From Chloroflexota bacterium (lineage in GTDB: Bacteria; Chloroflexota; Dehalococcoidia; UBA2979): a DNA stretch of 38,917 nt. This document shows positions 1 to 27,674 of the stretch, piece by piece. The notes beneath the pieces were generated by a model. That model worked only from the letters and a program-made list of their open reading frames with translations, was not told the DNA's origin and ran no database searches. The translations under genes were made by a program, and so were the position numbers. How positions within the stretch are numbered: the stretch's first letter is position 1; the number at the start of each line of letters is the position of its first letter. Location of the stretch: assembly GCA_009840965.1 (NCBI GenBank), contig VXMT01000126.1, positions 1 to 38,917 of the forward strand. Direction: 5' to 3'.

Positions 1-2581
1 CCGCCGCGCCGGCGTCGACCACGCCGAAGCCGTATTTGTGGTTGAACGAGTAGACGTCCGTGTCCGAGCCATACTGCAGCGCGCCGTCCTCCCAGTCTCC
101 GTCGGACGCATCGTTCTTGCGTGCCGAGGCGGCCAGGATCAGCTTCACGTCGCGCCACGTGAGCAGGGGGTTGGCGGACTTGATCAGCGCCACGACGCCG
201 GACACGATCGGTGCAGCCGCGGAGGTGCCGCCGAAGTCGCCCCAGTACAGCCCCGGCGTGAAGTCCGAGCCGTCGCCGACGGGGTACAGCAGCGCGGCGG
301 ACTTCGTGGTCGTGATGAAGGCGCCATCCCCGTGGGACGGGGCGCAGACCCAGAGGTTGGCGCCAGGCTCGGAGTAGCGGCTCTTCTCGCCGGTATGGTC
401 GACCGCGCAGACGGCCGTGACGCCGTAGAAGTTCGCGTAGCCGTCGAGGTTGGCGTTGTCCAGGGCGTATCCGTCCGGGTCTCCGCCGTTGCCGGCGGCC
501 CAGACGTAGGAGATGCCCCGGCCGCCGTCCCCCTCCCTCAGCCCCGTTTCGATCGCCGCCATCCAGGCAGCCTCGGCCGGGTGAGGCGCGCCATTGTCCG
601 GGAATCCCCAGCTGTTGGACGACACCTGCGTGCCCACCCTGTGGCGCGTCATCGCATCCACCAGGTCGCGAAGCTCCGCCTCGCCTGCGGACAGCCAGTC
701 GACGAAGTTGTAGCTGTAGATCGTCGCTCCGGGCGCCACGCCCCGGACACCGACCTCGTTATGCTCGGCCGCGATCAGCCCCGCAACGGACGTTCCATGG
801 TTCACCCAGAACAGATTTGAGACGCCCGCCGGCACTCCGGTCCAGTAGTCGTGGTTGCGGCTGGTGTTGACGTTGTCTTTCAGGTCTTCGTGCTCGAGGT
901 ACAGGCCGTCGTCCACGATCGCGATGTTCACGCCCGCCCCGGTGTTCCCGTCCTCCCACACCTCCACGACGTTGATGTCCTCGCCCGTTCCGCCGCCGGA
1001 CTGGCCCGTGTTGTCGAGGTGCCACTGGCAGCCGTAGAAGGCGTCGACGGTGTCGTCCGTGGTCAGGTCCATGCACCTCTGCGCGAACGCCGCGTACCGC
1101 TCCTCGGGCAGGGCAAAGAGGAAGTAGCCGCCGGTCTCGCTCCCCTCCCCGTCCACGCGGATGCCGTACGTCTTCCCCGCCTCGACGGGCACGAGCACGT
1201 AGTCCGCCATGTGGTCCCGCGCGAACGAGAACCAGTCGGAGTGAGGGACCCTGGAGACGTCGAGGGTGGAACCTCCCTCGTCGTAGACCGTGATCCGTGC
1301 CGCCATGGGGTCGTCGATCAGCGTCGCGGCCGCGAGCGAGACGTAGCCGTCCTCCTCGACCGCGAGGCTGAAGTAGTCGGCGTCCGACGAGGAGGAGATG
1401 CGTCCGGGCACGCCCCCGCCGAGCCGGATCGGCGTGGCGGTGCTGAGGGACGTCCCGGGGTTGGGCGCCTCGCCCACCTGCATCCAGTACGGCCCCGTGA
1501 AGAACGACCGATTGCCGATGATCCTGATGTAGTACGTGCCGGCGGCGACCGTGTGCCGCAACATGAAGCCCTGGGCATTGGCGAAACTGCCGAACGGATA
1601 ATGCTGGAACAGCTCACCAGCGAGGAAGAACCGGTAGCTTGTCTGCAGGTCGTCGCCGTTGCTGTTGAGGAGCTGGCCGGTGATGACCGTGTCGCTGAAG
1701 GCCACGACGAAAAAGTCGGTCGCCGTGTCGAAGTCGAGCCGGTAGTAGTCCGCATCGTGGCTGTCGGTATCGCCGGGCCGCCCGATCCTTCCCGCTGTCA
1801 CCATGCCGAGGTGCGCGGAGGCGGCCGAGGGCAGACTGTTCCCCACGTCGTCGGGCGCGAGCATCCCGTGGAGCTCGTACGCGCCCGTGGCGCCGCCGTC
1901 GCCCGTGACCTCGATGTAGTAGGTCCCGGCGTCCAGGCGGGCGCGGACCAGGAAGTTCCACGGACTCTCCGGGAACCGGCCGTCGTCGTTCGACGTCACG
2001 GACGTCCCGTCGCTCTCCTGCAGCTCGCCGTGCGTATCGAGGAGCCCGGTGGTGTAGAGCACCAGTTCCTTCGTCTCGGTCAGCACGAAGCTGAAGAAGT
2101 CCGCGTCGCCGTCCGAGTCGATTCGTCCCGCCACGCTGGCCGTCGAGTCGCTCAGCGCGAAGTTGGCGGCCGTCGAGCGGGTGTCGCCGTAGTCGTCCGT
2201 GGCCTGGGTGGTCGAGGCCGACCAGGCGCCGTCACCCTCGCTGTTGACCGCGCGTAGCTGCACGTCGTAGCTCGTGCTGTCTCGCAAGCTAGCAATGGAG
2301 TAGGAGAGCGTGCCGGTGGTCCATGCGTCCTCGACGAGGGTCCAGTTGGCGTCGGCCGTTTCGTCGTCGTCCGTCTCGATATAGCGGAGGTCGTATGCGG
2401 TGACGGCCGCGCCGCCGTCGTCGTCGGGGGCGGCCCACGTGACGGTGAGGGAGTCCGCTGTCGAGGTGGCCGCGATGCTGGTGGGGACGCCCGGGACGGT
2501 CACGGTCTGCGCGAGGGCTCGCCCCCCGGGGAGCAGGAGCCCGAGCGCGGCGCAGGCCGCGATCAGTGCGCCCCATCTCAT
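1..2581 (-). CDS. S8 family serine peptidase (subtilisin-like), C-terminus truncated by window edge; N-terminal signal peptide, fibronectin-III-like domain and PPC-like repeats
   Basis: Manual minus-strand translation from ATG at 2581: MRWGALIAACAALGLLLPGGRALA..., then ...VNIAIVDDGLYLEHEDL (Asp), ...NHGTSVAGLIAAE (His), ...GGTSAAAPIVSGVVALI (Ser). Open through base 1. Missing from the ORF track because it runs off the edge. Confidence 0.92.
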   Translation of the reverse strand, partial: MRWGALIAACAALGLLLPGGRALAQTVTVPGVPTSIAATSTADSLTVTWAAPDDDGGAAVTAYDLRYIETDDDETADANWTLVEDAWTTGTLSYSIASLRDSTSYDVQLRAVNSEGDGAWSASTTQATDDYGDTRSTAANFALSDSTASVAGRIDSDGDADFFSFVLTETKELVLYTTGLLDTHGELQESDGTSVTSNDDGRFPESPWNFLVRARLDAGTYYIEVTGDGGATGAYELHGMLAPDDVGNSLPSAASAHLGMVTAGRIGRPGDTDSHDADYYRLDFDTATDFFVVAFSDTVITGQLLNSNGDDLQTSYRFFLAGELFQHYPFGSFANAQGFMLRHTVAAGTYYIRIIGNRSFFTGPYWMQVGEAPNPGTSLSTATPIRLGGGVPGRISSSSDADYFSLAVEEDGYVSLAAATLIDDPMAARITVYDEGGSTLDVSRVPHSDWFSFARDHMADYVLVPVEAGKTYGIRVDGEGSETGGYFLFALPEERYAAFAQRCMDLTTDDTVDAFYGCQWHLDNTGQSGGGTGEDINVVEVWEDGNTGAGVNIAIVDDGLYLEHEDLKDNVNTSRNHDYWTGVPAGVSNLFWVNHGTSVAGLIAAEHNEVGVRGVAPGATIYSYNFVDWLSAGEAELRDLVDAMTRHRVGTQVSSNSWGFPDNGAPHPAEAAWMAAIETGLREGDGGRGISYVWAAGNGGDPDGYALDNANLDGYANFYGVTAVCAVDHTGEKSRYSEPGANLWVCAPSHGDGAFITTTKSAALLYPVGDGSDFTPGLYWGDFGGTSAAAPIVSGVVALIKSANPLLTWRDVKLILAASARKNDASDGDWEDGALQYGSDTDVYSFNHKYGFGVVDAGAA

Positions 2582-3426
2582 CTCACGACGACCTGGGAGC
2601 GCCAGTTGGGGCTGGAGATCAGCACCCCCTCCTCGTCGGCCAGCTCGTTCGCGAGCAGGAGCGAGGGCAGGCCGGGATCGGTCGAGATGAAGTAGGCGTT
2701 GGTGGCGAAGTCCTCCTCCTCGACACGGCTGAGCGCGATGCCGTTGGCGGCGAAGAAGCCCTCGACCCGGCGCTGATCCCACTCCGCATCGAGCACCAGC
2801 AGCACTCCGCCGGGCAGCGTCATGCGCCGCCCGGAGTCGTCATAGAAGACGGGAGAGCCGTCGGAGTCCGCTTGCGAGTCAGAGCGCCCGGAGGCGCCCA
2901 CTTCGCCCGATGCACCCGCGTCCTCGGCGGGCCCCAGCCACACGCGCCGCGTGTGTTCGCCGTCCTGCCACGTGTATTCGGTGGCCCCCTCGGGAGGTGC
3001 CTGTCGCGTGTCGCTGCCCCCCGCCGAGCCGGGACCGCGTGCGCCGGCCGGCGCCCTCCCCGCCGGCTGGGCGGCGCTCCCCCCGGTCGGCGTCGGAGTC
3101 GCCCTGCCGGGCGTTGCGCTCGCTGTCGGAGCGCCGGCCGCGGCGGTCGCTGTGGCAGTCGGGGCGCCACCCTGGCGATCCGGTCCCGGCATGCCCGGCG
3201 CCGGTGTTGCCGTCGGCGCCGGCGTCGCTGCCGGCGTAGCGTCACTCCGCCTATCAGGTACCGGGGTGGTCGGCGCTGGTGTGGCCGTCGCCACCGGCGG
3301 CGCCCCTGCCGGCGCGGTTGCCGCCGGTTCGCTGAGCGTGGACTGGCAGGCGACCAGCAACATCGCGGCGCCGAGCCAGGGAGCGACCATCGCGGGGGCA
3401 ACGGAAAAGGGAACGGACGGTCTCAT
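2578..3426 (-). CDS. Secreted lipoprotein with Ala/Thr/Pro-rich linker and C-terminal S8 prodomain-like region
   Basis: ORF 2578..3447; likely start MRPSVPFSV at 3426; lipobox-like LLVAC; C-terminus 'RRMTLPGGVLLVLDAEWDQRRVEGFFAANGI...GLPSLLLANELADEEGVLISSPNW' resembles subtilase N-terminal prodomains. Stop overlaps the start of the S8 gene (ATGA). Confidence 0.7.
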   Translation of the reverse strand: MRPSVPFSVAPAMVAPWLGAAMLLVACQSTLSEPAATAPAGAPPVATATPAPTTPVPDRRSDATPAATPAPTATPAPGMPGPDRQGGAPTATATAAAGAPTASATPGRATPTPTGGSAAQPAGRAPAGARGPGSAGGSDTRQAPPEGATEYTWQDGEHTRRVWLGPAEDAGASGEVGASGRSDSQADSDGSPVFYDDSGRRMTLPGGVLLVLDAEWDQRRVEGFFAANGIALSRVEEEDFATNAYFISTDPGLPSLLLANELADEEGVLISSPNWRSQVVVR

Positions 3427-3810
3427 CGAACGCACTTCTTGGGCCACCTGAGCGGCAGTACGCCGGCCAGTTCACGCACGCTCGCGGCCGGTGTCGCCGC
3501 CATGAGCGAACTGGGCCGAGGCGTTCTGTCGTCGATCGCGGTCCATTAACGCGCGCTGAAGACGATAGCCGACCAGACCCGCAGCGATGTGAGGGAGCTA
3601 TAAGGTCTTGCCCGAATGGCGTAAAATATCTGTTAGTGTTGGGGCGAGGTGCTCAGCAGAGGCCGATCAGCGGGTAATCCTGGTCCAGGAAGACACGCCG
3701 CCAGCGCTCGAAATCCAGGCTCGTTACGGCGCTATCGCGAAGATGAATGAAGGCGGCGGCATGGATCTGCATCTCACCGAACCCCTGGTCTCCCGTTTTG
3801 CCGAGAGGTG

Positions 3811-3981: not shown

Positions 3982-4794
3982 TCAGCGCAGCTTCCACTCG
4001 GGCGGGCGCCCCTCGGCGAAGGCCCTCGGGCCCTCGATCGAGTCTTCCATCGCCTCGACCTTGTCGAACAGGGCGAGCCCGAAGCGCTGCGCCCAGTGAT
4101 CGTCCTGGAAGAGGTAGCGGTAGATGAGCTCCTTGTGCGTCCAGACCGAGACCGGGCCCATCTCGCAGACCTCCTCGGCCCACTGGATGGCTTCGTCGAG
4201 CAGCTGTTCCCTTGGCACGACCTTGTTGACCCAGCCGACCTCGTACATCCGCTGCGCGGTATATTGCCGCGCACCCCACAGGGTCATCTCCATCACCATG
4301 GCGGGCGGAATCATGCGTGCCGCCTGCGCCATGAACGACGCCGGGAGGTTCCAGCGCACTTCCGGAACCCCGAACATCGCGTGCTCCGCGGCGATGCGCA
4401 CATCGCAGATCTGAGACAGGAACCAACCCCCCGCCACGGCGAAGCCGTTGACGGCGCCGATGATCGGCTTCCAGAACTCGTGGTCCACCGGGGCGAGCTT
4501 GGCCCAGCCACCCTGATCGTCGACGTACTGGACGAAGCCGCCCTCGTACTCCTCGTCCAGCTCGGCGCGGTCCTTGAGGTCCTCACCGGCGCAGAAGAAG
4601 CGGTCACCCACCGCGGTCAGGATCACCGCCCAGATTTCGTCGTCGGCCTTGAGCCGCGGCCACTCCTGCGCAAGCCGGCGCGCGAGATCGAAGTTGATCG
4701 AGTTGCCGCGCTCCTCGCGGTTCACGGTCAGCACCGCGTAGTGTTTCTCCGGCACCCGCTCGACGAGCAGCACGTCATCTCCGCGTATCGCCAT
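3982..4794 (-). CDS. Enoyl-CoA hydratase/isomerase family protein
   Basis: 270 aa; crotonase motifs 'FFCAGEDLKD', 'AVNGFAVAGGWFLSQICDVRIAAEHAMFGVPEVRW'. Confidence 0.92.
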   Translation of the reverse strand: MAIRGDDVLLVERVPEKHYAVLTVNREERGNSINFDLARRLAQEWPRLKADDEIWAVILTAVGDRFFCAGEDLKDRAELDEEYEGGFVQYVDDQGGWAKLAPVDHEFWKPIIGAVNGFAVAGGWFLSQICDVRIAAEHAMFGVPEVRWNLPASFMAQAARMIPPAMVMEMTLWGARQYTAQRMYEVGWVNKVVPREQLLDEAIQWAEEVCEMGPVSVWTHKELIYRYLFQDDHWAQRFGLALFDKVEAMEDSIEGPRAFAEGRPPEWKLR

Positions 4795-4818: not shown

Positions 4819-5268
4819 TCACTCTCGCGAGGGGAGCAGCACGGTGCCTTGCGCCGGCGTCGCAACCCCCTCGCGGTCGTTCGTGATCGAGAGCTCGATC
4901 TCGACGGCGTTGCCGTCGTCGGTCTGTTCCTTGGCGACGACCTTGCCGCTCACGGTGATGACATCGTCTGGCATGTTCATGCGCCGCATCTCGAAGTGCA
5001 GCCTGCGCACCCAGCCCTCCGGTCCGGCGAAGTCGGCGAGGAGGCGGTAGAGCTGCGCGCGAGTCCAGCCCGTGTTGTAGAAGATGGTGCGGTGCCCGCC
5101 GGACTGCGCGAACGGCGGGTCGTGGTGCACGGCGTAGAAGTCCTGCGAGCCGCTCACCTGCTTGACCATCTCGGTCCAGTCGAGCGTGTAGGAGAAGCCG
5201 GGCAGTTCGTCGCCCACGCTCACGTCCTCGAAGTAGATCTGCGGTAGTGGGTCCAGCTTGACGGCCAT
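4819..5268 (-). CDS. MaoC-like hot-dog dehydratase
   Basis: 149 aa 'YFEDVSVGDELPGFSYTLDWTEMVKQVSGSQDFYAVHHDPPFAQSGG...' MaoC-like hydratase pattern. Confidence 0.85.
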   Translation of the reverse strand: MAVKLDPLPQIYFEDVSVGDELPGFSYTLDWTEMVKQVSGSQDFYAVHHDPPFAQSGGHRTIFYNTGWTRAQLYRLLADFAGPEGWVRRLHFEMRRMNMPDDVITVSGKVVAKEQTDDGNAVEIELSITNDREGVATPAQGTVLLPSRE

Positions 5269-5293
5269 CGCCGTGCTCCCTCGTGCTGAGCGC

Positions 5294-5869
5294 CTACGCC
5301 GTCTGCAGCCCGAGCGGGTCGGGGTCGGCCTCGACCTCCTCGGGCGCGCGGTGGCGCAGGCTCGTGTTGCGGCTGATCGCGACGAGCTCGTCGTCCTGGT
5401 TGTAGAAGCGCGTCTCGTCGATGATCCAGATCGCGTTCGGGTCGAGGCGGATCGGCTTGACGTAGACGTCCGCGATCGAGGGCTGCAACCAGAGCCGGTC
5501 GCCGATCCTCATGGGCTTCAGGAACTCCCACGTCGTGCTGAGGTTGATGGCCCGATCGCCGATCACGGGAACGTCGAGGTCCTCGTTCTCGGGCGCCGGG
5601 ATGTCGGGGCCGCCGTTCCAGTTCGGCCACGTCCCGTCGCCTGCGAAGTAGTCGGCCATCACCCCGGGGGCGATGTTGTCGCCGTACCGGCTGTTCCTCC
5701 CGTACTGGGGGTCGATGAAGAGCGGGTTCCTCCCGTAGCACATGTGCTCATGGCGGCGGATCGGATCGTGCTCCACCGGGTAGAGGCCATCCTTCCGCTC
5801 GCCCGTTCGTCCGACGTACTGCTCCCGAATCCTGTCGATGTCGTAGTCGGCCGCTGCTACCTTTGGCAT
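5294..5869 (-). CDS. MaoC/FAS1-like dehydratase (N-terminal MaoC-type) domain protein
   Basis: Internal start MPKVAAADYDIDRIREQYVG at 5869; 'YGRNPLFIDPQYG', 'WEFLKPMRIGDRLWLQPSIADVYVKP', 'ETRFYNQDDELVAISRNTSLRH'. Confidence 0.85.
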   Translation of the reverse strand: MPKVAAADYDIDRIREQYVGRTGERKDGLYPVEHDPIRRHEHMCYGRNPLFIDPQYGRNSRYGDNIAPGVMADYFAGDGTWPNWNGGPDIPAPENEDLDVPVIGDRAINLSTTWEFLKPMRIGDRLWLQPSIADVYVKPIRLDPNAIWIIDETRFYNQDDELVAISRNTSLRHRAPEEVEADPDPLGLQTA

Positions 5870-5954
5870 TGACTCCCCCTCACCGAGGGCCACGACTCCA
5901 GTGGCCGGCTCGCCGGGCCCCTCGGGTACGGGCCCGACGGCCGCCCCGCGCCTG

Positions 5955-6425
5955 TCAGATGTACGACCAGTGCACCAGCGAGTACGGGGGGTCGTGATCG
6001 AGGTGGTGTTCGAACACCGCCTCGACCTCGGCGCCGATGACGACGTCTTCCTCGGGCTCGCCGAGCAGGTTCCCGACCATGCGGATGTTTCCGGCATGCG
6101 GGAGCTCCACGAGGACGACGACGTACGGCACCGCCTCGACGAGCGCCGGGTGCACCGGATGCCACGCGCGCTCCCAGGAGTAGATTCGCCCGCGCGGCTC
6201 CACCTCCCGCCAATCGAGGTCGTACGAGTGACAGGTGTGGCAGAGCCACTCCGGACCCCACTGCCAGACATCGCAGGAGGGGCAGAACTGAACCAGCAGC
6301 TCGTTGCGGGCTGCACCCTCCCAGTAGGGGCGGTCCAGCTCGTTCATCAGCGGCACCGGGAACGCCGGAGCCTCGGCGAAGTATGCGCCGCCGGCCTCGA
6401 TCTCGGACTTCGTCGCGTTGGCCAT
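5955..6425 (-). CDS. DUF35 Zn-ribbon/OB-fold protein (thiolase/aldolase partner)
   Basis: Internal start MANATKSEIEAGG at 6425; 'FCPSCDVWQWGPEWLCHTCHSYDLDW' CxxC...CxxC zinc ribbon followed by OB-fold-like 'GRIYSWERAWHPVHPAL...PYVVVLVEL'. Confidence 0.9.
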   Translation of the reverse strand: MANATKSEIEAGGAYFAEAPAFPVPLMNELDRPYWEGAARNELLVQFCPSCDVWQWGPEWLCHTCHSYDLDWREVEPRGRIYSWERAWHPVHPALVEAVPYVVVLVELPHAGNIRMVGNLLGEPEEDVVIGAEVEAVFEHHLDHDPPYSLVHWSYI

Positions 6426-6435
6426 CGTTCGTTCC

Positions 6436-7608
6436 CTACACTTCCGCGCCCAGGATGAGGTTGCTCGTCGGCTCGACCATCGGCCCCGAGGCGACGAGCG
6501 AGATCTCCGCACCCTCGACCTGAGAAGTCGAGGTGCCGCGGATCTGGCGCGTTGCCTCGGTGATCAGTTCGAAGCCGTGCATATAGCACTCGGCCAGATT
6601 GCCGCCGCTCGTGTTCAGCGGGAGGTCACCCGTGTCGAAGCGGAAGTTCTCGAGGGTGAACTCCTCGTTGACCCGCTCAGCCGGGACCAGCCCGTGCTCG
6701 ACGATGCTCATCATCACGCCGCCGGTGAAGTTCTCGTACATTTGCACGACGTCGACCTCGTCCGGCATGACCTCGGCCATCTCGTAGAGCCGCTTCGCGG
6801 TCACCTTGAAGTTGGACGTCGCGTAGTCCGGCGCGTTGTGCGCCGAGGCCGATTGCCGGTAGCCAGAGCCCTGCGCGGCTCCCAGAATGTACGCCGGCTT
6901 CTGCTTCAGGTCGCGGGCGCGCTCGGCGGTCGTGATGATCGCCGCGGCCGAGCCGTCGTTCTCCTGGCAGCAGTCGTAGAGGTGGAACGGCTCGACGATC
7001 CAGCGCGAGTTGTCGTACGTCTCCTCGTCGAGCGGCCGGCCGTACATGACCGCGCGGGGATTACGCTGGGCGTGGTAGTAGCAGGCGAGCGAGATCGCCC
7101 GCAGCGCCGACTGTTCCACGCCGTGCTCGTACATGTAGCGGTGGGTCTTCATCGCGAACATCTGCGCCGGCGACATCACCCCGTACGGCATCGCGAGGGC
7201 GTCCGGCCCCTCCACGCCGCCCGCGGCGACGGGCCCGCCGAAACGTCCGAACTCGCCCTGCGAGAGCGCGCGGTAGGCGACGGCGTAGTCGCAGAGCCCG
7301 GTGGCCACTGCCGCGGCCGCGTTCATGATCGCGGCCGATCCGCCGCCACCACCGCCGCCCCAGACCATCGAGCTGACCTTCAGATCCTCGATGCCCAGCG
7401 CGGTGGCGAAGCGGATCCCCTCGTTGCGGTCCATCGAGTAGGAGAAGAAGCCGTCGATCTCCCGAATATCGATGCCGGCATCGTCGGCCGCCTTCTGCAT
7501 GGCCATGAGGCCGAGCTTGAACTCGGCGTCCTCCGCCCCGCCCCGCTTGTAGTAGGCGGTCTCCCCGATGCCGACGATCGCGGCCTTCCCTCGAATCGTC
7601 TCCGTCAT
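6436..7608 (-). CDS. Thiolase-fold protein (Ltp/SCPx-like), candidate retro-aldolase
   Basis: MTETIRGKAAIVGIGETAYYKRGG...; region expected to hold the nucleophilic Cys reads 'VSSMVWGGGGGGGSAAIMNAAAAVATG'; 'DVVQMYENFTGG'; next to DUF35. Confidence 0.88.
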   Translation of the reverse strand: MTETIRGKAAIVGIGETAYYKRGGAEDAEFKLGLMAMQKAADDAGIDIREIDGFFSYSMDRNEGIRFATALGIEDLKVSSMVWGGGGGGGSAAIMNAAAAVATGLCDYAVAYRALSQGEFGRFGGPVAAGGVEGPDALAMPYGVMSPAQMFAMKTHRYMYEHGVEQSALRAISLACYYHAQRNPRAVMYGRPLDEETYDNSRWIVEPFHLYDCCQENDGSAAAIITTAERARDLKQKPAYILGAAQGSGYRQSASAHNAPDYATSNFKVTAKRLYEMAEVMPDEVDVVQMYENFTGGVMMSIVEHGLVPAERVNEEFTLENFRFDTGDLPLNTSGGNLAECYMHGFELITEATRQIRGTSTSQVEGAEISLVASGPMVEPTSNLILGAEV

Positions 7609-7651: not shown

Positions 7652-9043
7652 TCACGCTGTGGCGTCGCTCCCGTACGTGTCGCCGAACCGCTCCATCATG
7701 CGCTCCGTGTAGCGGGGATCGAACTCGACGATCCTGAGCTGAGCCGCAGGCGGCAGGTGCAGCCGCTCCTCGAGGTCGGCGGGGGGCGGCTTCATCTCGG
7801 CCGCATCCGGCGTGACGCCCATCGCGCCCGACGCGACGTACTCCTCGTACTCCTCCTCGCTGCATTCCAGCAACCCGGTCGCGATCAGGTGATTGTGCTC
7901 GCCGAGCATCGGGGCGCGCGTGCGCAGCTCGGCGGGAGTGCGGGAGAGCAAGGCCGAGGCGCCGGGCCAGGCCCGGCGGCCGGCCCCCTGCTCCGGCGCA
8001 TGGTCGACGAGCCAGAAGAACCCGCGGGCCTCGAGATGCGGATCGAGCAGCAGGTCGCGCGCGTTGGCCGCGACGGCGGCCGGCACGCCCCGAGCCTGCA
8101 ACTCGGAGACCGCTTCGTCGCCGTCGCGAGGGCGCGCCCACGCCTCCAGCGCCTCGCGGATCCGTTCCTGCTCGGCGGCGGAGAGTGGCTGCGCCCAGGG
8201 ATCGCGATCGACGTCGAGCGCCTCGAACTCGACCAGCTCGCGCAGCCCGTCCCACGAGGCACGATCGCAGACGTCGACCGCGAGCCAGCGCGAGCCGTCG
8301 TCGCACGGAACGCAGCCGGCGATCGGGTGACCGTCGTCGCCGTTCCCGCGCGGACCGGGAACGTTCGCGCCGAAGGCGCGGGCGACGTGCGCGTCGCCGA
8401 TCAGGTTGACGCCCACCTCGTACTGCGAGACGTCGACCCACGCGCCCTTGCCGGTGCGGTCGCGCCGCTCGAGCGCGGCGACCATGAGGAAGGCGATGTG
8501 ATAGGTCGCGGGGTGGTCGGTGAGGGGAATCGTGCCACGCTGGGGTGCCTCGCCTGCGTAGCCGTTGAGCGAGCTGATCCCGCTCATCACCTCGCTCATC
8601 ATGCCGTACGAGCGGATCTCGCTGTACGGACCGCCGTACCCGTAGCCGGAGGTCGAGACGTACACAAGGTCCTCGCGCGCGGCGCGCAGCTCCTCGTAGC
8701 TCAGCCCGAGATCCTCCATGAGCCCCGGCGGGTGGCTGTCGAGGACGATGTCGCAGCTCGCGACCAGGCGCAGGAAGAGCTCGCGGCCCCGGGGATTCCC
8801 GGCGTCCAGCCCGACGCAGTATGCCTTGTTCCGATGCTGTTCCAGGTAGATGCCGCTCTGTTCCCAGTACGGGTCGCCGGCGACGCCGTCGGGGAAGCAG
8901 AAGTTCCGCCCCAGGTCCGGCCGCCGGTAGTGCTCGACACGGATGATCTCGGCGCCGTAGTCGGCGAGCAGGCGCGCCGGGAACGTGCCCGCCTGCACGA
9001 TCCCGTTATCCAGCACGCGTACGCCGTCGAGTGCGCCGGGCAT
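7652..9043 (-). CDS. CaiB/BaiF family CoA-transferase
   Basis: 463 aa; 'GVRVLDNGIVQAGTFPARLLADYGAEIIRVE', 'DRTGKGAWVDVSQYE'. Confidence 0.92.
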   Translation of the reverse strand: MPGALDGVRVLDNGIVQAGTFPARLLADYGAEIIRVEHYRRPDLGRNFCFPDGVAGDPYWEQSGIYLEQHRNKAYCVGLDAGNPRGRELFLRLVASCDIVLDSHPPGLMEDLGLSYEELRAAREDLVYVSTSGYGYGGPYSEIRSYGMMSEVMSGISSLNGYAGEAPQRGTIPLTDHPATYHIAFLMVAALERRDRTGKGAWVDVSQYEVGVNLIGDAHVARAFGANVPGPRGNGDDGHPIAGCVPCDDGSRWLAVDVCDRASWDGLRELVEFEALDVDRDPWAQPLSAAEQERIREALEAWARPRDGDEAVSELQARGVPAAVAANARDLLLDPHLEARGFFWLVDHAPEQGAGRRAWPGASALLSRTPAELRTRAPMLGEHNHLIATGLLECSEEEYEEYVASGAMGVTPDAAEMKPPPADLEERLHLPPAAQLRIVEFDPRYTERMMERFGDTYGSDATA

Positions 9044-10221
9044 CAGATCGCCCCCGCTGCTGCGGCGGCCTGCAGCTCGCCTTCCGAGTGGCCAAGCAGT
9101 TCGCCGAACACAACAGCATTGTGCTCACCGAGCCGTGGGACGACTCGCATGCGCTCCGTGGCGCCCTCGGAGAGCGCGTACGGCGGCCCGGGGGCGCGTC
9201 CCTCTGCGCCGCCCGGCAGCCGGAGCGAGCCGAAGTGCGCGCGCGCCTCCAGGTGTTCGCAGGCCGCAACCTCGTCGAGCGTTTGCACCATGCCCGCCGG
9301 GACGCGGTGCTCCTTCGCCCGGGCGAACCACTCGCGGCGCGTGCGGGTGCGCATCGAGCGGGAGATGACGTCAGCCACGCGTCCGGCGTTCGCGGTCATC
9401 GAGAGTGGCGGTTGCAACTCCGGATCGAGGATCAACTCCTCCGCCTCGAGCGCGATGGCGAAAACATCCCACGGAACGGCGGTGTGCCAGTTCACGATGA
9501 TCGGGCCGTCCGAGGCCGGTTTCAGGTCGAGCCAGCCGCGAGCCTGCAGCGCTCCCTGGTACTGGTAGTCGGCGAAGTGCATGAAGTACGAGGCGACCAG
9601 CGACTCCTGGATGGAGACGTCGACATGCTGGCCCTCGCCGGTCAGCCGGGCGTGCCGCCGGGCGATCAAGGCGGCGTGCGCCGCATTGGACCCGGCCCAG
9701 TACTCGGAGATGTGGCGCGGGTAGCGCAGCGGCTCGCGGTCCTCGTCGCCGTTGCCGTCCATGAGGGCGGCGGCTGCCTGCAGGGTCAGCGAGCTGCCTC
9801 GGAGGTCACGCGACGGCCCGCTGCCGCCGAAGTTCGTGATGCTCACCCACACCACCGAGGGGTTCACACCGAGCACCTCTTCCAGGCCGAAGGCGTGGCG
9901 CTCCAGCGTACCGGGAGCGAAGTTCTCGACGACGATGTCGGCCCAGCGCACAAGCTCGCGCAGCCATTCGGCGCCGGTCGGCGTCGTGAAGTCGAGCGTG
10001 ACCGATCGCTTGTCCGCGTTGAGGAAGGCGTAGACGGCGCTGACCGTCTCGGCCGAGCCGTCGTCGAGCAGCGGCGGGAGCGCGCGGGCGGGGTCGCCGG
10101 CGCCGGGGCGCTCGACGTGAATGACATCGGCGCCCGCATCCACGAAGAGCTTCGCGCAGTACGGCCCGGCCGTGTAGCGGCCGAGATCGAGGATCCTCAG
10201 TCCCTCCAGCAGATCGTTCAT
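9043..10221 (-). CDS. CaiB/BaiF family CoA-transferase
   Basis: 392 aa; 'GLRILDLGRYTAGPYCAKLFVDAGADVIHVERPGAGDPAR', 'NADKRSVTLDF', 'ARLTGEGQHVDVSIQES'. Confidence 0.93.
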   Translation of the reverse strand: MNDLLEGLRILDLGRYTAGPYCAKLFVDAGADVIHVERPGAGDPARALPPLLDDGSAETVSAVYAFLNADKRSVTLDFTTPTGAEWLRELVRWADIVVENFAPGTLERHAFGLEEVLGVNPSVVWVSITNFGGSGPSRDLRGSSLTLQAAAALMDGNGDEDREPLRYPRHISEYWAGSNAAHAALIARRHARLTGEGQHVDVSIQESLVASYFMHFADYQYQGALQARGWLDLKPASDGPIIVNWHTAVPWDVFAIALEAEELILDPELQPPLSMTANAGRVADVISRSMRTRTRREWFARAKEHRVPAGMVQTLDEVAACEHLEARAHFGSLRLPGGAEGRAPGPPYALSEGATERMRVVPRLGEHNAVVFGELLGHSEGELQAAAAAGAI

Positions 10222-11129
10222 GCCACTGACCCCCGGAGCCGCGGGTCGAGGGTGTCTCGCAGACCGTCGCCGAGCACGTTGATCGCGAAGACCGTGACGG
10301 CCAGGGCAACGCCCGGGAAGAACGCCATCCAGGGGGCGCGCGTGACGTATGGCCGGGCCTCCACGCCCATCATCTGCCCCCAGGTCGGGTCCGGCGGCTG
10401 CACGCCGTAGCCGAGGAAGCTGAGCACGGACTCCGCGAGGATCGCCGAGCCGAGATTCAGCGAGGCGATGATGATGACGGGCGCGATCACGTTGGGGAGC
10501 ACGTGCCGCGCCATGACGCGTACGGGCGTGGCGCCGATGGTGGTGGCCGCCTCGACGTAGACCTCCTCGCGCACGCTCATCACGGCGCCGCGCACGATCC
10601 GGGAGCTTGTGACGCCCTGGTAGAGCCCGATGATCAGCGCGATGCTCAGGAAGCTGGCGCCCGCCATGGTGACGATGAGCAGCAGGAAGAGGATGAACGG
10701 GATGCCGATCGCGGCGTCCACGATACGCTGCAGCACCATGTCGGCGATGCCCCCGGCGTAGCCCGAGATCACGCCGACCAGCACGGCGATGAGGAGACCG
10801 AAGGCGACGGCCGCCAACCCCAGCAGGAGCGAGAAGCGCGTCGCGACCAGCACGCGGCTGAGGATGTCACGGCCGAGATTGTCGGTCCCAAGCAGGTACC
10901 CCTCCCCCGGTGAGCGCAGCCCGTTCAGCACGTCCGTATCGTACGGATCCTTCGGGGTGATGGAGGGCCCGATCACGGCGATGACCAGTCCGAACAGCAA
11001 CACGAGCGCCCCGAACGTCGCCAGCGGCTGTCGCCGGGCGAACACCCTGATCGCACGCCACCACCCCAGGGCCACGCTCGCGCGGCCCGCGCCGAGTGCG
11101 CGTTGCCTGCCTACACCGGTCGTAGCCAT
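10218..11129 (-). CDS. ABC transporter permease, DppC-type (peptide/nickel family)
   Basis: 303 aa, hydrophobic; 'GTDNLGRDILSRVLVATRFSLLLGL' and 'EAATTIGATPVRVMARHVLPNVIAPVII' EAA motif. Confidence 0.93.
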   Translation of the reverse strand: MATTGVGRQRALGAGRASVALGWWRAIRVFARRQPLATFGALVLLFGLVIAVIGPSITPKDPYDTDVLNGLRSPGEGYLLGTDNLGRDILSRVLVATRFSLLLGLAAVAFGLLIAVLVGVISGYAGGIADMVLQRIVDAAIGIPFILFLLLIVTMAGASFLSIALIIGLYQGVTSSRIVRGAVMSVREEVYVEAATTIGATPVRVMARHVLPNVIAPVIIIASLNLGSAILAESVLSFLGYGVQPPDPTWGQMMGVEARPYVTRAPWMAFFPGVALAVTVFAINVLGDGLRDTLDPRLRGSVA

Positions 11130-11139: not shown

Positions 11140-12093
11140 TCAGGCGCGGCTGTGCCGGATGCGCGGATCGATGAAACCGTACGAGATGTCGACGACCAGG
11201 TTCGTCATGATGATGATGACCGCCATGAACAACGTGACCGCCTGCACGACCTGGTAGTCGCGCCTCGAGAGTGCGTCGAGCGACAGCTGACCCAGCCCGG
11301 GGAGCGCGTAGATGCTCTCCAGCACGACCGATCCGCTTAGCAGGAAGATGAAACGGATGCCGATCAGGGTGACGACGGGGATGAGCGCGTTGCGCAGCGC
11401 GTGGCGGCGGATCTGCGTTGCCCGCGAGAGCCCTTTCGCGGCGGCCGTGCGCATGTAGTCCAGGCGCAGCACCTCGAGCATCGTCGCGCGCAGCATCCGC
11501 ATGATCGAGCCCGCGAGGAACACCGTGCCGACCAGCGCCGGAGCGAGCATGTGCTGGATGCTCGCGAGCGGGTCCTCCTGCAGCGGCACGTGTCCGATCG
11601 GAGGCGTCCAGCGCCAGTAGTACGCCGGGAGCGAGATCGTGAGGACGGCGATCCAGAAGAACGGGATCGAGATGCCACCGATCGCGATCGTGCGCAACAG
11701 GTAGTCGAACGGCGACCCGCGCATCACGGCGGAGAGCACGCCGAGCGGCAACCCGATCGCGAGGCTGAAGATGAGCGTCATCATCGCCAGCTGGAATGTC
11801 ACCGGCGTGCGGTCTCGGATCACAACGGAGAGCTCCCGGCCCGAGGCCAGCGACTCGCCGAGGTCTCCGCGCGCGAGTTCGCCGAGGTAGCGCCAGAACT
11901 GGACCGCAATCGGATCGCTGAGCCCGAGCTTCTCCCGCAGTTCCTCCGCCTGGCCCGGCCGGGCGCCGGTGTCCTGAAAGAACTGGTCGACGATGTCGCC
12001 CGGCATGAGCCGCACCGCGACGAACACGATCACGACCACGAGCACCAGCGAGATGCTCGAGACCACCAGGCGGCCGAGGAGGTATCGCGCCAC
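11140..12093 (-). CDS. ABC transporter permease, DppB-type
   Basis: 317 aa; 'MARYLLGRLVVSSISLVLVVVIVFVAVRLMPGD'; 'YMRTAAAKGLSRATQIRRHALRNALIPVVTLIG' EAA motif. Confidence 0.93.
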   Translation of the reverse strand: MARYLLGRLVVSSISLVLVVVIVFVAVRLMPGDIVDQFFQDTGARPGQAEELREKLGLSDPIAVQFWRYLGELARGDLGESLASGRELSVVIRDRTPVTFQLAMMTLIFSLAIGLPLGVLSAVMRGSPFDYLLRTIAIGGISIPFFWIAVLTISLPAYYWRWTPPIGHVPLQEDPLASIQHMLAPALVGTVFLAGSIMRMLRATMLEVLRLDYMRTAAAKGLSRATQIRRHALRNALIPVVTLIGIRFIFLLSGSVVLESIYALPGLGQLSLDALSRRDYQVVQAVTLFMAVIIIMTNLVVDISYGFIDPRIRHSRA

Positions 12094-12142: not shown

Positions 12143-13980
12143 TTACTTCTGCACGTAGACCTGATCCACGCGCCCGCTGTCCCAGAGCATCGGGATGCCC
12201 TGGATGCGCGAGAGCGCCGCGTAGGAGAAGGGCCCCGATCCCGTCCAGGCGTTGGCGATCTCCTCGGGCGAATTGACGAAGCGCTGCATGTCCTGCATCA
12301 GCGAGATCCGCTCCTCGATGTCGAAGGTGCTCTCCTCGACGGCGAGCATGCGGTCGAGGTCCGGGTTCGCGTACCCCGAGAAGTTCCGGCCTCCCTCGCT
12401 GTGGTACATCTTCTGCATCGCGTCGTGGGCGTCGACGCCCATCGAGTAGGCCGACGAGATCATCTGGAACTCGTGCAACGCCTCCGCCTGCTTCCAGGCG
12501 CCCCACTCGAGCGCCTGCTCCGACGGTTGCAGGACGTTGCCGGAGACATCCTTGTACATGTCGACCGCGATCTGCAGCTGGTCGATACCGACAAGGGTCT
12601 GGGGCACGGACCACCCCATGATTTGCCACTCCATGGGGTTGTCGGCGTCGAAACCCGCCCGGCAAGCATCTGGAGTCCCTCGGCGATGTCTTGCTCGCGC
12701 CGCCCCAAGCCGAAGCCCGGCATCTCCTCGAACTCCGCGTCCGGGAGATGGAACGCGAGATGCCCCATCCCGAGCGCGATCGACGGCTTCGCTCCGATCG
12801 GCCAGCCGTACGTACGGTTCGGCAGGCGGTCCATGATCAGGTTGATCGCCCAGCGCACGCGGATGTCGGCGAAGGCGGGATCCTGCGTGTTCATGAAGTG
12901 CCCGTGCGCGGAGGCGGCCATCACCTCCGAATACACGTACCCGTCGATGCCCTCCGACTCGAGGAACCCGGCAAACGAGTCGTGGCCGGGGAGCAACTCG
13001 GCAGGCACCAGCACGATGTCGATGTTCCCGGCGCGGAACTGCGACCAGTGGTCCTCGACGTCGAGCTGTTCGAGTTCGTCGAGGTACGGCAGACCCTCGC
13101 GCCAGTAGTCGGGGTTCCGCACGAGCGTGGCGCCGAAGTCGGGCGCGAAGCTCTCGACGATGAACGGCCCCGTGCCGATCGTCGCCTCCGGACTCTTGAT
13201 GTCCCCGAACTGGTCGATCACCTCGGGCGCGACGGGAATCCACTGGTAGCCCGCGAGCATGGTGAGGATGATCGCCGTCGGGTACTTCGTGGTGAGCCGC
13301 ACGGTGGAGTCGTCCGGCGCCTCGATCGTATCGACCACCGCCAGGTCGCCGCTGTGGATGAACGAGGGGTCGTCCGAGCGCGCCCGCTCGAGGCCGAACA
13401 CCACGTCGCTCGCCTTGAAGTCGCGGCCGTTGACCGGCGGCTTGTTCTGCCACTTCACGCCCTCGTGAAGCGTGAAGACCACGTCGGTGCCGGCCTGCTC
13501 CCAGGACTGCGCGAGATCCGGCTCAGGGAGCTGGGCGTCACCGCGATAGCGGACCAGCCGGTTGTAGGTGGCGCCGATGATCTGCTGCGCCCCGGAGATG
13601 CTGTCCTGGTGGATGTCGAGGTGGGCCGTGGTGTTCTGGGCCCATGACATCTTCCCGCCTCGCTTCGCCTCGTCCTCCGCGGTGGTGGCAGCCTGGGTCG
13701 GCGTGGCTGTCGCCCGAGGTGCGACGGTGGCCGTCGCCCGCGGAGCAGGGGTAGCGGTCGCCGGCGCGGCAGTGGCCGTCGCCTGGGCGGGGGCGGCAGC
13801 GGGCGTGGCTGCCGCCGGAGGAGCCTCGTCGTCGTCGTCGTCGCAGCCGATCAGCGCGGCAGTGGCGAGTCCGGCGGCTCCGAGGACGCTCCCTCGCAGG
13901 AGCGCCCGGCGGCCGATGATCGTCCTTCCCAGCCTCCGGTACGTGGCAGCAACCTCACTCTGGTCATCTCGCGCGGCCAT
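12143..13980 (-). pseudogene. ABC transporter family-5 substrate-binding protein (Tat lipoprotein), disrupted by a 1-nt frameshift near 12657-12663
   Basis: N-terminal part in ORF 12460..13980 (RRALLRGSVLGAAGLATAALIGCDDDDDE...NKPPVNGRDFKASDVVFGLERA); C-terminal part in another frame of ORF 12143..13453 (FDADNPMEWQIMGWSVPQTLVGIDQLQIAVDMYKDV...). Join at 'gcccggc'. Confidence 0.85.
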
Positions 13981-14031
13981 GCTGTCTCTCCCCCCACCGC
14001 GGAGCAGCTACACGCTCCGCCGGCCCAGCCT

Positions 14032-14076
14032 CAATCGTGGTATCGCGATTGTTCTTAACCCGTCCCGGCGTGTCAA
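14032..14076 (-). promoter_or_regulatory. Predicted promoter of the SBP-DppBC-CaiB-thiolase-DUF35-MaoC-ECH operon, with palindrome CAATCG-N8-CGATTG
   Basis: Minus strand TTGACA (14076-14071), 17-nt spacer, AACAAT (14053-14048); 6-bp inverted repeat CAATCG(14032-14037)/CGATTG(14046-14051) overlaps the -10. Confidence 0.6.
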
Positions 14077-14389: not shown

Positions 14390-15313
14390 CTACGTGAAGG
14401 CGGGGAACACCTCGCGGGCGACCCGCTCGAAGAGCCCTCGATCGTAGGGAGTGTTCACTACCATCACGAGGTGCGTGAAGCCGGCGTCGGCGTAGGCCTG
14501 CACGGCGTTACGCAGGTCCTCCGGCGAACCGCCGATGGTCATGCGCCGCACGTCGGCCGGCGCCAGACCCTGCCACTCCGCGGTGCGCTCGACGAAGCGC
14601 TCGTAGATCGCGTCCGGGATGAGCGCGGCGCCGGCGGTGAGCTCGATGTCCTCGAAGCGCCGGCCGACAACGTCGCAGTGCCGACGGAGGCGCTCGATGC
14701 GATCCGCCAGCAGCTCCAGCGTGCCATTGCCGTTCCATGCGTCCGCGTACTTCGCCACCAGCCGCAGCGTGCGGTTGGGGCCCGTACCGCCGACCCAGAT
14801 CGGCGGATGGGGCTGCTGCACGGGCGCCGGGACGAACGGCGCGTCCTCCAGCCGGTAGTGGTCGCCGCGGAAGCTCACGCCCTGCTCCCCCGACCAGAGC
14901 AGCCTGATGACCTGCAACGCCTCCTCGAGGCGGTCGAACCGCTCACCGGCCGTGCCAAAGTCGAAGCCGTAGGCGGCGTGCTCGCGCTCGAACCAGCCTG
15001 CGCCGATGCCGAAGTTCAGCCGACCATCCGAAATCACGTCGACGGTGGTGGCGATCTTCGCGAGGTGGGCGGGGTTGCGGAACGTGTTGCAGGTGACCAT
15101 GGTCCCGAGTCGCAGCCGCGGCACGCGCGCGGCGAGGGCCGCGAGGGTGGTCCAGGCCTCGAGGCAGGGTCCGTCGGCGTCGCCCGCGCCAGCCGGCAGG
15201 AGGTGATCGGTGGTCCAGGCCGCGTCGTAGCCCAGGCCCTCGAGCAGCTGCCACGTGTCGAGCAGCTCGTCCCAGCTGATGTTCTCCTGGCCGGTCTGAA
15301 CCGAGAACCGCAC
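14390..15313 (-). CDS. LLM class F420/flavin-dependent oxidoreductase
   Basis: 307 aa; 'LLEGLGYDAAWTTDHLLPAG', 'VISDGRLNFGIGAGWFEREHAAYGF', 'HPPIWVGGTGPNRTLRLVAKYADAWN'. Confidence 0.92.
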   Translation of the reverse strand: MRFSVQTGQENISWDELLDTWQLLEGLGYDAAWTTDHLLPAGAGDADGPCLEAWTTLAALAARVPRLRLGTMVTCNTFRNPAHLAKIATTVDVISDGRLNFGIGAGWFEREHAAYGFDFGTAGERFDRLEEALQVIRLLWSGEQGVSFRGDHYRLEDAPFVPAPVQQPHPPIWVGGTGPNRTLRLVAKYADAWNGNGTLELLADRIERLRRHCDVVGRRFEDIELTAGAALIPDAIYERFVERTAEWQGLAPADVRRMTIGGSPEDLRNAVQAYADAGFTHLVMVVNTPYDRGLFERVAREVFPAFT

Positions 15314-15350
15314 ACGATCCCCTTTCGCGCCGCGCCGGGCGGTTGCCCGA

Positions 15351-15764
15351 TCAGCTCCGCGACATCGGGCGGAACTTCGGCAGGCTGATCTCGTCCGTAG
15401 CGTCTTCGAAGTGCACCTCGACCGGTTGACCGACGTAGATCCTGTCGGGCGAGACGCCGACGACGTTGGTGAGCATCTTCGGGCCTTCTTCGAGCTCGAC
15501 GATCGCCTCGATGTAGGGCACGTCCTCGGAGAACGCCGGCGACTGCGGGCGATAGATCGTGCTCCAGCTCCAGACCGTTCCCCGGCCCGAGACTTGCTCC
15601 CAGTCGTAGTCCTCGGAGTAGCACTCGCGGCAGAGGATCTGCGGGGTGAAGCGATAGGCCCGGCACTCGCGGCAGCGTTGCAGCACCAGCTTGTGCGCTC
15701 GCGCGCCGTCCCAGAACGGGCGCCAGAGATCGGTCGGCGACGGCAAGGGCTTGGAGAACGGCAT
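15351..15764 (-). CDS. DUF35 Zn-ribbon/OB-fold protein
   Basis: 137 aa; 'LQRCRECRAYRFTPQILCRECYSEDYDWEQVSGRGTVWSWSTIYRPQSPAF'. Confidence 0.9.
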   Translation of the reverse strand: MPFSKPLPSPTDLWRPFWDGARAHKLVLQRCRECRAYRFTPQILCRECYSEDYDWEQVSGRGTVWSWSTIYRPQSPAFSEDVPYIEAIVELEEGPKMLTNVVGVSPDRIYVGQPVEVHFEDATDEISLPKFRPMSRS

Positions 15765-15792
15765 GTGAAGTCCCTCCGCTCGCGCTCACCCG

Positions 15793-16992
15793 CTATTTCG
15801 CGAGGATGGCGTACGCGAACCCGCCGGTCGGCGGCGTCCCGATAGCCGCGACTTGTGGATCGCGGAGCTTCCTGCAGACCGCGCGGTCGTACGTGTGCTC
15901 GCCGCTCTCCCAGTCCGGGCAGAGGTCGGGCACGAATCCGCGGAACTGGCGCACGGCCTCGACGATCTTGAAGTTGTGGGGAGCGCCGGGGTGGCTGAAC
16001 GAGAGGTTCCCGCCGTCGGTCACCATCGGGAACTTCTGGTCGAAGTCCATGTGCTCGACGATGAACGGGCCACCCTCGCCGGGCTCGCAGAACCCCATCA
16101 GCTCGGTGTCGATGATCAGCCCGCTCGAGAAGTGGTCGTAGAGCTGCAGCTGATCGACGTCGTCATGGCCGACGCCTGCGCGCCCGAACCCGGCGACGAG
16201 GCGGTCACGCCAGCGGTAGATGTCGAGCGTGGGGACCTCGAAGTAGCTTCGGAAGTGGCGCGCGCTCGCGCCGCCGATCACCCACACCGGGTCGTGCTTC
16301 GACTCGGCCGCACGCTCCGCGCTCGCGACGACCAGCGCGGAGGCGCCGTCGCTCACGATCGAGGACATGAGCAGCGTGAACGGGTCCGCGAACTTCCGCG
16401 ATTCGAGCACATCGTCGGCGGTGTACGGCCCCCGCCCAAACATCACCGCGTCCGGGTGGATGTGGCCGTGGTTGCGCACGGTGGCCGCGCCGTAGGCCAT
16501 CTGCTCCAGCGTCGTGCCGTACTCGTGCATGTGTCGCCGCGCCTGCAGCGCGATCTGTCCGGCGGTGATCGATCCGGTCCACTCGGTGAACTCGTCGGTC
16601 GGGCGTGTCCAGCTCGCGACACGTCCGTCGGCCGGACCGCGCGCCTGCCCGTAGACGATCACCGCGACGTTCACCTCACCCCACGCGATCGCCGGCACAG
16701 CCTCGAGCAGCGCGTCCGCACCCTGCGAGGTGCCCCCGGCGGAGAGCGCAATGTCGAGCTGGTAGCCGACATTCCCGAGCGCGAACCCGGTCCCGCCGCT
16801 CATGCCGAGGTCGTTGCCGAAGGGGAAGGGGCCGTACCAGCCGTCGACGTCCTCGATCGAGAACCCCGCATCGTCGAGCGCTCCGAACACCGCCTCGCGG
16901 ATCAGCGAGCGGGTCGTGCGCTCCGACTGACGCTCCTGTTTCGTCGCGTACACGCCGACGACGGCCGCCTCGTGTCGCCTGGTCACATACAC
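15793..16992 (-). CDS. Thiolase-fold protein (Ltp/SCPx-like), candidate retro-aldolase
   Basis: 399 aa; 'AAVVGVYATKQERQSERTTRSLIREAVFGALDDAGFSIEDVDG'; 'IALSAGGTSQGADALLEAVPAIAWG' lacks the expected Cys; 'DQLQLYDHFSSGLIIDTELMGFCEPGEGG'. Confidence 0.88.
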   Translation of the reverse strand: MYVTRRHEAAVVGVYATKQERQSERTTRSLIREAVFGALDDAGFSIEDVDGWYGPFPFGNDLGMSGGTGFALGNVGYQLDIALSAGGTSQGADALLEAVPAIAWGEVNVAVIVYGQARGPADGRVASWTRPTDEFTEWTGSITAGQIALQARRHMHEYGTTLEQMAYGAATVRNHGHIHPDAVMFGRGPYTADDVLESRKFADPFTLLMSSIVSDGASALVVASAERAAESKHDPVWVIGGASARHFRSYFEVPTLDIYRWRDRLVAGFGRAGVGHDDVDQLQLYDHFSSGLIIDTELMGFCEPGEGGPFIVEHMDFDQKFPMVTDGGNLSFSHPGAPHNFKIVEAVRQFRGFVPDLCPDWESGEHTYDRAVCRKLRDPQVAAIGTPPTGGFAYAILAK

Positions 16993-17011
16993 CTCCGAAC
17001 GGGGCCCGCGC

Positions 17012-17851: not shown

Positions 17852-17913
17852 CCGGCACCCTGTCGCTGCGGCGCGCCCGCCACTCGCGCAACGCGAGGAG
17901 CGCGCCGAGGAGC

Positions 17914-17926
17914 CTTACGATGTAAG
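17914..17926. promoter_or_regulatory. TAC-N3-GTA operator site 1 (CTTACGATGTAAG), divergent LLM / SDR intergenic
   Basis: Perfect 13-bp palindrome with 3-nt spacer; same core as eight other sites. Confidence 0.7.
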
Positions 17927-17993
17927 CTCGGCCACGCTACGGGAGGGCCAATGGGCCGTCAAGCGGCGGCCGCCGGTGATTGAGGACTGGACC

Positions 17994-18806: not shown

Positions 18807-18825
18807 GCGAGCCCGGCGCTCAGCC
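18801..18825. terminator. Bidirectional hairpin overlapping both convergent stop codons
   Basis: GGCTGAGCG-AGCCCGG-CGCTCAGCC; 9-bp perfect stem containing the TGA of the SDR and the TGA of the minus-strand 3-HIBDH-like gene. Confidence 0.6.
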
Positions 18826-19743: not shown

Positions 19744-19885
19744 GTGCCTCCGTCGCCTGCTTCGCGCCGAGGATGCTAAGGGCTAGCGACCACCAACGGC
19801 GTTGACCGGGAGTCACCGGCTTCGACGGCGCCGGCCCGCGGGCCCTGGCGCCCCTGCCGCGGGAGGATGGCGTCACACCGTCCGA

Positions 19886-21085: not shown

Positions 21086-21160
21086 GGCGAAGGAACCTCC
21101 CGGCTTCCTGCCCACCCGCGCCGTGCGCGTCGAGGGACAGGTCGATGTGCGCTCCTGTCT

Positions 21161-21211: not shown

Positions 21212-21260
21212 GGGCGGCTGCGCTTGCGGCGGGCTCGCGGGCGGGATCGTGCCGCCCAGG

Positions 21261-27666: not shown

Positions 27667-27674
27667 GGCTCGCC

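Follow-up and report, generated by a model that had tools for sequence, protein, structure and literature searches.

How thiolase-fold enzymes and their DUF35 partners cleave coenzyme A (CoA) esters by a retro-aldol reaction is known for steroid side chains (PMC12329534, PMC11321319, PMC12502768). In this study, a similar gene set was analyzed in a 38,917-nucleotide contig of a Chloroflexota bacterium of the Dehalococcoidia (VXMT01000126.1, hereafter the window), where a thiolase-fold gene is followed by genes for a stand-alone DUF35 protein and two MaoC-fold proteins. The first system to compare is Ltp2-ChsH2(DUF35), known from Thermomonospora curvata (Tc; PDB 6ok1) and from igr of M. tuberculosis. 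In TcLtp2, the base is Tyr294 of a Y-D-H-F motif and the acid is Tyr344, with His296 aiding the oxyanion hole (PMC12329534). The second is the Sal-Shy bile-acid aldolase of Comamonas, in which the motif is Y-D-C-Y with Cys as acid, Gln stands at the second Tyr site, and the DUF35 domain, with a Cys3His1 ribbon, is fused to a MaoC domain; both Sal and TcLtp2 have Gly at the position of the thiolase nucleophilic Cys (PMC12329534). Hydration is carried out by ChsH1-ChsH2 (4w78, 4wnb), two hot-dog subunits of which only ChsH1 holds the catalytic dyad while the other holds the steroid rings (PMC11321319).

Stand-alone DUF35 proteins have precedents. In Mycolicibacterium neoaurum, a retro-aldolase, Atf1, and the 138-amino-acid (aa) DUF35 protein ChsH4 are encoded in one operon, and both are implicated genetically in the degradation of a C5 steroid side chain (PMC10398937). 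ChsH2 of Comamonas testosteroni TA441 can be expressed as two separate halves, MaoC and DUF35, which are functional (PMC12502768). Finally, the benzoylsuccinyl-CoA thiolase BbsA/BbsB (7pxp) and PhlB/PhlC also combine a thiolase-fold protein with a separate DUF35 subunit, and BbsB, with an HDAF motif and a nucleophilic Cys, performs true thiolysis.

The window comes from a 2.69-Mb metagenome-assembled genome, 88% complete. Its four genes are named below by their lower coordinates (6436, thiolase-fold; 5955, DUF35; 5294, MaoC-N-like; 4819, MaoC; Table 1). We found that 6436, which by its residues is predicted to act like Ltp2, is nevertheless not an Ltp2: it belongs to a clade of its own, named here after its Y-E-N-F motif.

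Residues and phylogeny of the thiolase-fold protein

The closest solved relative of 6436 is TcLtp2 (9e-73), followed at lower levels by the "thiolase" 4u4e (1.6e-42) and the Sal-like 9myr (3e-34). Upon alignment, Y291 of the YENF motif and Y342 fall on Tyr294 and Tyr344 of Ltp2, and Gly takes the place of the nucleophilic Cys in a glycine-rich loop (W83-GGGGGGG). Both YENF and the second Tyr are found in 109 of 109 clade rows. The glycine-rich loop is present in nearly all of them, some members having Cys or Val at its last position only. At the position of the Sal Cys and of Ltp2 His296, all 109 rows have Asn (N293 in 6436). The single deviating row of the residue count, the distant L077_8235, appears mislabelled as an aldolase and is not a clade member; in the tree (as L077_27) it groups with Sal on a long branch. 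It lies on another contig of the same genome (C116, locus L077, 8235-12058), where a DUF35 gene precedes three tandem distant thiolase-fold paralogues, 24-26% identical to 6436.

In a maximum-likelihood tree, 6436 falls within a 55-row clade (100/100), and Ltp2 (three rows, 100/98), Sal, BbsB and ACAT all lie outside it. Ltp2 is likely the sister of the YENF clade, although the node joining them is weak (95/44).

Alternatively, 6436 could function with its DUF35 protein as a thiolase or as a Claisen-type acyltransferase, like BbsAB or PhlBC, which would fit its fold, the separate DUF35 gene and its Thiolase_C_1 match in Pfam. The bbs operon moreover has paired CaiB genes beside BbsA/BbsB, as seen here. 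However, 6436 has neither the nucleophilic Cys nor the catalytic His of true thiolases: the aligned loop is Gly, Tyr replaces the His of HDAF, a Tyr stands in the C-terminal motif, and the tree sets the protein apart from BbsB and ACAT. We thus consider a thiolase very improbable. The first-pass annotation of the window, which read 6436 as an aldolase and not as a true thiolase with intact residues, is favoured on this point.

The same annotation also placed the genes with the igr set, and in this it did not hold. A true igr/Ltp2-ChsH system, removing a C3 side chain from the CoA ester of a steroid or hopanoid, would have the same enzyme types in a similar gene order, and two matches point that way: the top NCBIfam match of 6436 is the lipid-transfer protein PRK07855, and ChsH1 is among the nearest solved relatives of 4819. 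Yet the PRK07855 match scores 359 bits against a curated cut-off of 469, and 6436 reaches 249 bits against 6ok1, as compared with 582 for a Novosphingobium protein from an igr-like locus. Together with the separate clade and the YENF instead of YDHF motif, these scores led us to reject igr membership, which we regard as very unlikely. The preferred reading, an Ltp2-like aldolase outside Ltp2, keeps what the two share: a thiolase fold without nucleophilic Cys, two aligned Tyr, a DUF35 protein with a Cys4 ribbon and MaoC-fold hydratase genes nearby. Unlike the Ltp2-ChsH2 system, the DUF35 is unfused and the operon includes a CaiB pair and an ABC (ATP-binding cassette) transporter. With Sal-Shy, 6436 shares the Gly at the nucleophile site, the putative Tyr base and a DUF35 partner.

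A second pair of a thiolase-fold gene and a stand-alone DUF35 gene is present in the window (15351-16992, minus strand), between two luciferase-like monooxygenase genes. The thiolase-fold product has YDHF, with neither a second Tyr nor a nucleophilic Cys, and its closest solved relative is 4u4e.

The DUF35 partner is a separate gene across the clade sample

The product of 5955 carries a Cys4 zinc ribbon (C48-x2-C51-x10-C62-x2-C65) followed by an OB fold, and both Pfam ChsH2 models match above cut-off. The spacing of the Cys is the canonical one given for TcChsH2 (PMC12329534), the four residues are invariant in 15 aligned DUF35 rows, and the best PDB match is TcChsH2(DUF35) (3.9e-15). That DUF35 forms its own open reading frame (ORF), as first annotated, is correct. 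ChsH2 itself, a dyad-less MaoC domain fused to a C-terminal DUF35, corresponds here to two genes.

The separation had been presented as a peculiarity of this locus, which it is not. When a genome collection was scanned with the clade alignment, at least 581 encoding loci were obtained, of which 80 were kept for neighbour analysis, with neighbouring genes called by targeted tblastn. In 80 of 80, from several phyla, the aldolase gene is immediately followed on its own strand by a DUF35 gene (gap between matches from -12 to 183 bp). The latter is also stand-alone in each, the reading frame stopping 135-163 codons past the start of the match. A split DUF35 is thus the rule of the YENF clade, besides its precedents elsewhere.

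The two MaoC-fold proteins

The MaoC-fold protein 4819 has the dyad D43-FYAV-H48, and neither D43 nor H48 varies among 16 aligned rows, two of which are ChsH1-like plasmid proteins. In a single-sequence PDB search its closest solved relative was ChsH1 (1.4e-6). Its predicted structure, folded from an alignment of rows from the window and genome loci only (plasmid rows excluded), matched ChsH1 in Foldseek (4wnb_B, E 1.5e-8, TM-score 0.78), as well as other MaoC-fold proteins. In 5294, by contrast, the D43 and H48 of this active-type subunit correspond to N48 and D53 (13-row alignment). Its family profile matches HadA (4.6e-8) before ChsH2 (1.1e-3). A modest AlphaFold model of 5294, of which only the hot-dog half was used (residues 30-93 having a predicted local distance difference test score below 50), matched HadAB (3.9e-6) and ChsH2 (1.2e-4) chains in Foldseek.

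Two adjacent hot-dog proteins, with an Asp/His dyad in one only, are the features of a heteromeric MaoC hydratase. We infer that 4819 and 5294 form such a hydratase, of the ChsH1-ChsH2/HadAB type, with one active and one inert subunit. The predicted inert subunit differs from ChsH2 in lacking a DUF35 domain and in having HadA as its profile-nearest solved relative. In every further locus containing close orthologues of both, the MaoC-N gene is directly next to the MaoC gene.

A ten-gene operon

All four ORFs are real genes, as judged by codon-position bias or strong homology, and their order and minus-strand orientation are as first annotated. Their extents needed correction in two cases: the DUF35 ORF, listed to 6512, and the MaoC-N ORF, listed to 6316 and so overlapping DUF35, were over-extended at the 5' end, and start at 6425 and 5869, respectively. 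The genes are part of a colinear minus-strand operon of 10 genes (Table 1), in which, from 11129 down to 3982, adjoining genes overlap or leave gaps no longer than 85 bp. A gene for an SBP_bac_5 protein likewise stands ahead of the operon in a sister genome (locus L059). Beside the operon end, three ORFs (38-820, plus strand; 851-2257, plus; 2578-3447, minus) had no Pfam match.

Table 1. Operon genes, from the probable first to the last, and the acyl-CoA dehydrogenase pair of the window.
Feature	Coordinates	Strand	Remarks
ABC transporter solute-binding protein, SBP_bac_5	12460..13980	-	Pfam SBP_bac_5 1.5e-39; probable first gene; 366 bp to next gene
OppB/DppB-type ABC permease	11140..12093	-	Pfam BPD_transp_1 1.8e-38
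OppC/DppC-type ABC permease	10218..11129	-	Pfam BPD_transp_1 5.3e-29; 4 bp overlap with next gene
CaiB/BaiF family III CoA-transferase (b)	9043..10221	-	Pfam CoA_transf_3 2.1e-78
CaiB/BaiF family III CoA-transferase (a)	7652..9043	-	Pfam CoA_transf_3 2.4e-81; 1 bp overlap with CaiB_b
Thiolase-fold putative retro-aldolase, YENF clade, 390 aa	6436..7608	-	ATG start; stop 10 bp ahead of DUF35 start
Stand-alone DUF35, 156 aa	5955..6425	-	ATG start; Pfam zf-ChsH2 and OB_ChsH2_C
MaoC-fold partner (MaoC-N-like) without catalytic dyad, 191 aa	5294..5869	-	ATG start; Pfam FAS1_DH_region 1.5e-10
Catalytic-type MaoC-fold hydratase subunit, ChsH1-like, 149 aa	4819..5268	-	Asp/His dyad; PDB match to ChsH1
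Crotonase-fold enoyl-CoA hydratase/isomerase	3982..4794	-	Pfam ECH_1 2.7e-42; last gene
Heteromeric acyl-CoA dehydrogenase pair	26551-27678 (PimD-like), 27675-28952 (PimC-like)	-	Best matches pimD_small and pimC_large, both below cut-off

Linkage of the genes among relatives

Among 59 relatives, the MaoC pair was found in 11 of the 15 having a close aldolase and in 0 of the 44 without one (Fisher p 5e-9, uncorrected for shared ancestry); every relative carrying the pair also carries the aldolase. One locus of another Chloroflexota genome (L121, KLAP209) contains the same gene set in a reshuffled order, the OppC-type permease opening the cluster, with identities of 74% for this permease, 56% for CaiB_b, 53% for CaiB_a, 52% for MaoC-N, 57% for MaoC, 65% for the aldolase and 59% for DUF35. 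Another locus (L074, genome G055) has an uninterrupted series of dehydrogenase pair, aldolase, DUF35, MaoC-N and MaoC. The aldolase copy of this otherwise complete igr-like cluster (12921-14069, minus strand) has one in-frame stop, reflecting a pseudogene or an assembly error, and was excluded from alignments. The same locus has a crotonase gene, 44% identical to that of the window, beside a second aldolase-DUF35 pair. Elsewhere in the genome of the window, contig C104 has the order CaiB-CaiB-MaoC-N-MaoC-DUF35-dehydrogenase pair, and contig C87 has an aldolase paralogue with no adjacent DUF35. In two genomes of the same genus, aldolase, DUF35 and dehydrogenase genes are together (G001, with a complete dehydrogenase pair, and G003, whose contig ends there).

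The hydratase pair and the aldolase-DUF35 pair might instead belong to different pathways and be neighbours here by chance. They are indeed on different contigs in G001, G003, G008, G011, G022, G027, G034, G054 and G059. Against this, they are linked in the window, in L074, in L121 and, via DUF35, on C104, and no relative has the MaoC pair without the aldolase; a chance association is thus highly unlikely. The gene arrangement itself is not due to chance, because a stand-alone DUF35 follows the aldolase in 80 of 80 loci and the MaoC genes are neighbours in every relative found.

Beyond Chloroflexota, the clade is found in Proteobacteria, Actinomycetota, Binatota, Myxococcota and Rokubacteria, and its surroundings change. 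Among betaproteobacteria, a CaiB gene precedes the aldolase-DUF35 pair, and the loci also encode a LigXa-type Rieske oxygenase, a VanB-type reductase and TctC solute-binding proteins. In gammaproteobacteria, the pair often adjoins an MFE-2-type hydratase gene, which is near it in 19 of the 80 loci overall. Amidohydro_2 (PF04909) genes are found within 5 kb in 19 of the 80 loci, mostly as immediate neighbours (L126, L148, L150, L157, L165, L166, L178, L184, L186, L188, L189, L191 and others). Some members of the amidohydrolase superfamily are hydratases or decarboxylases, and these neighbours may supply or process the substrate of the aldolase. The clade probably serves several acids.

The wide variation of the neighbouring genes among phyla, including the Amidohydro_2 genes, would also be compatible with a fold turned to other CoA-ester chemistry. 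An example is the decarboxylation of a malonyl-type or beta-keto acyl-CoA, in which Asn293 and the tyrosines would stabilise an enolate. Asn at the position of the Sal Cys and Ltp2 His fits such a role, and the thiolase-like TbSLP weakly decarboxylates malonyl-CoA (PMC12329534). However, no clade row departs from the Tyr-Tyr pair of Ltp2, and the window and its closest relatives have a linked hydratase, an MFE-2-type one being near in 19 of 80 other loci. We therefore hold this chemistry to be unlikely, and a retro-aldolase preferred.

Dehydrogenases and substrate

The first-pass annotation had added an acyl-CoA dehydrogenase pair at 26551-28868 as the step preceding hydration. The pair exists, extending to 28952, but a role as ChsE partner was not supported. 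It is most similar to PimD/PimC, the subunits of pimeloyl-CoA dehydrogenase, and lies outside the group of aldolase-linked pairs of loci L057 and L110, whose large subunit groups with igr-like plasmid loci (support 0.917). An orthologue of ChsE1-ChsE2, as an igr system would have it, was thus rejected, and this PimCD-like character is a further point against such a system. The pair may nonetheless feed the pathway. A pair of the aldolase-linked kind is encoded elsewhere in the genome, next to the second DUF35-MaoC set on C104.

Nor did the suggestion of a steroid or hopanoid substrate gain positive support. In the 88% complete genome, where an absence is weak evidence, we found neither a BphC/HsaC-type dioxygenase domain (BphC_D1) nor a squalene-hopene cyclase domain, and the putative activation is by CoA transfer, with CaiB in place of the steroid-CoA ligase of an igr system. 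The single KshA_C match is beside a sterol-methyltransferase-like gene and a cytochrome P450 gene, not ring-degradation genes. Steroid degradation was rejected on these grounds. The KshA_C-type Rieske oxygenase lies on contig C274 (L116, 34000-46441) together with the Sterol_MT_C methyltransferase, the P450 and an MMPL/RND-type transporter, a set possibly devoted to sterol modification. Apart from the operon, the window has five luciferase-like monooxygenase genes within about 10 kb (14390-24852), and in all it contains five CaiB CoA-transferase genes (7652-10221, 28999-32731, 36849-38030).

Proposed pathway

Taken together, the operon probably encodes a CoA-dependent hydratase/retro-aldolase system for a carboxylic acid, as far as can be judged from gene content and residues. 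The ABC transporter would import the acid, and the paired CaiB enzymes would convert it to a CoA thioester, with another acyl-CoA as the CoA donor. An alpha,beta double bond would be introduced by an acyl-CoA dehydrogenase, which need not be that of the window. Water would then be added by the heteromeric MaoC hydratase, with 4819 as its active subunit and 5294 as the inert one that holds the substrate. The resulting beta-hydroxyacyl-CoA, probably branched or ring-borne, would then be cut between Calpha and Cbeta by 6436 with the separate DUF35 protein, and acetyl- or propionyl-CoA would be released with a ketone or aldehyde. In this step the base acting on the beta-hydroxyl would be Tyr291, and the acid for the enolate Tyr342. 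The first proposal, hydration and then a retro-aldol cleavage in which DUF35 is the partner, is well supported as a prediction, because the nucleophilic Cys is lost to Gly, both Ltp2 Tyr are kept, and the MaoC pair has its dyad in one subunit; the Cys4 ribbon of DUF35 is also intact.

Four observations weigh against this pathway. The operon itself contains no dehydrogenase gene; in G001 and G003, of the same genus, the aldolase and the MaoC pair are on different contigs; outside Chloroflexota, the vicinity of most clade members lacks a MaoC pair of this kind; and the oxyanion-hole His296 of Ltp2 is Asn in every clade member, so that catalysis may differ.

More tentatively, and with somewhat less than an even chance in our view, the YENF clade could constitute a third class of thiolase-fold retro-aldolases, beside Sal (Tyr and Cys) and Ltp2 (Tyr, Tyr and His). 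This class would be defined by Asn at the Cys/His position and by an always separate DUF35. Its partners would differ by lineage, both the hydratases (heteromeric MaoC, MFE-2-type double hot-dog, possibly others) and the enzymes that activate or oxidise the acid. Its substrates, across many phyla, would be branched or alicyclic carboxylates other than steroids.

The YENF clade is a widespread and apparently unstudied family, the likely sister of Ltp2, and it keeps the aldolase residues but sits in operons without evident steroid genes. Retro-aldol cleavage can cut at a beta-carbon that bears no hydrogen, as in a tertiary alcohol, where ordinary beta-oxidation stalls. If 6436 is truly an aldolase, bacteria could cut branched acids at the very carbon where beta-oxidation stops. 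From their genomes, SAR202 Dehalococcoidia have been proposed to oxidise carboxyl-rich alicyclic matter (PMC5395668); in a word search of two SAR202 genome papers, thiolases were mentioned in neither, and DUF35 was absent from the one searched for that term. If correct, the proposed activity would bear on how Dehalococcoidia could process carboxyl-rich alicyclic compounds.

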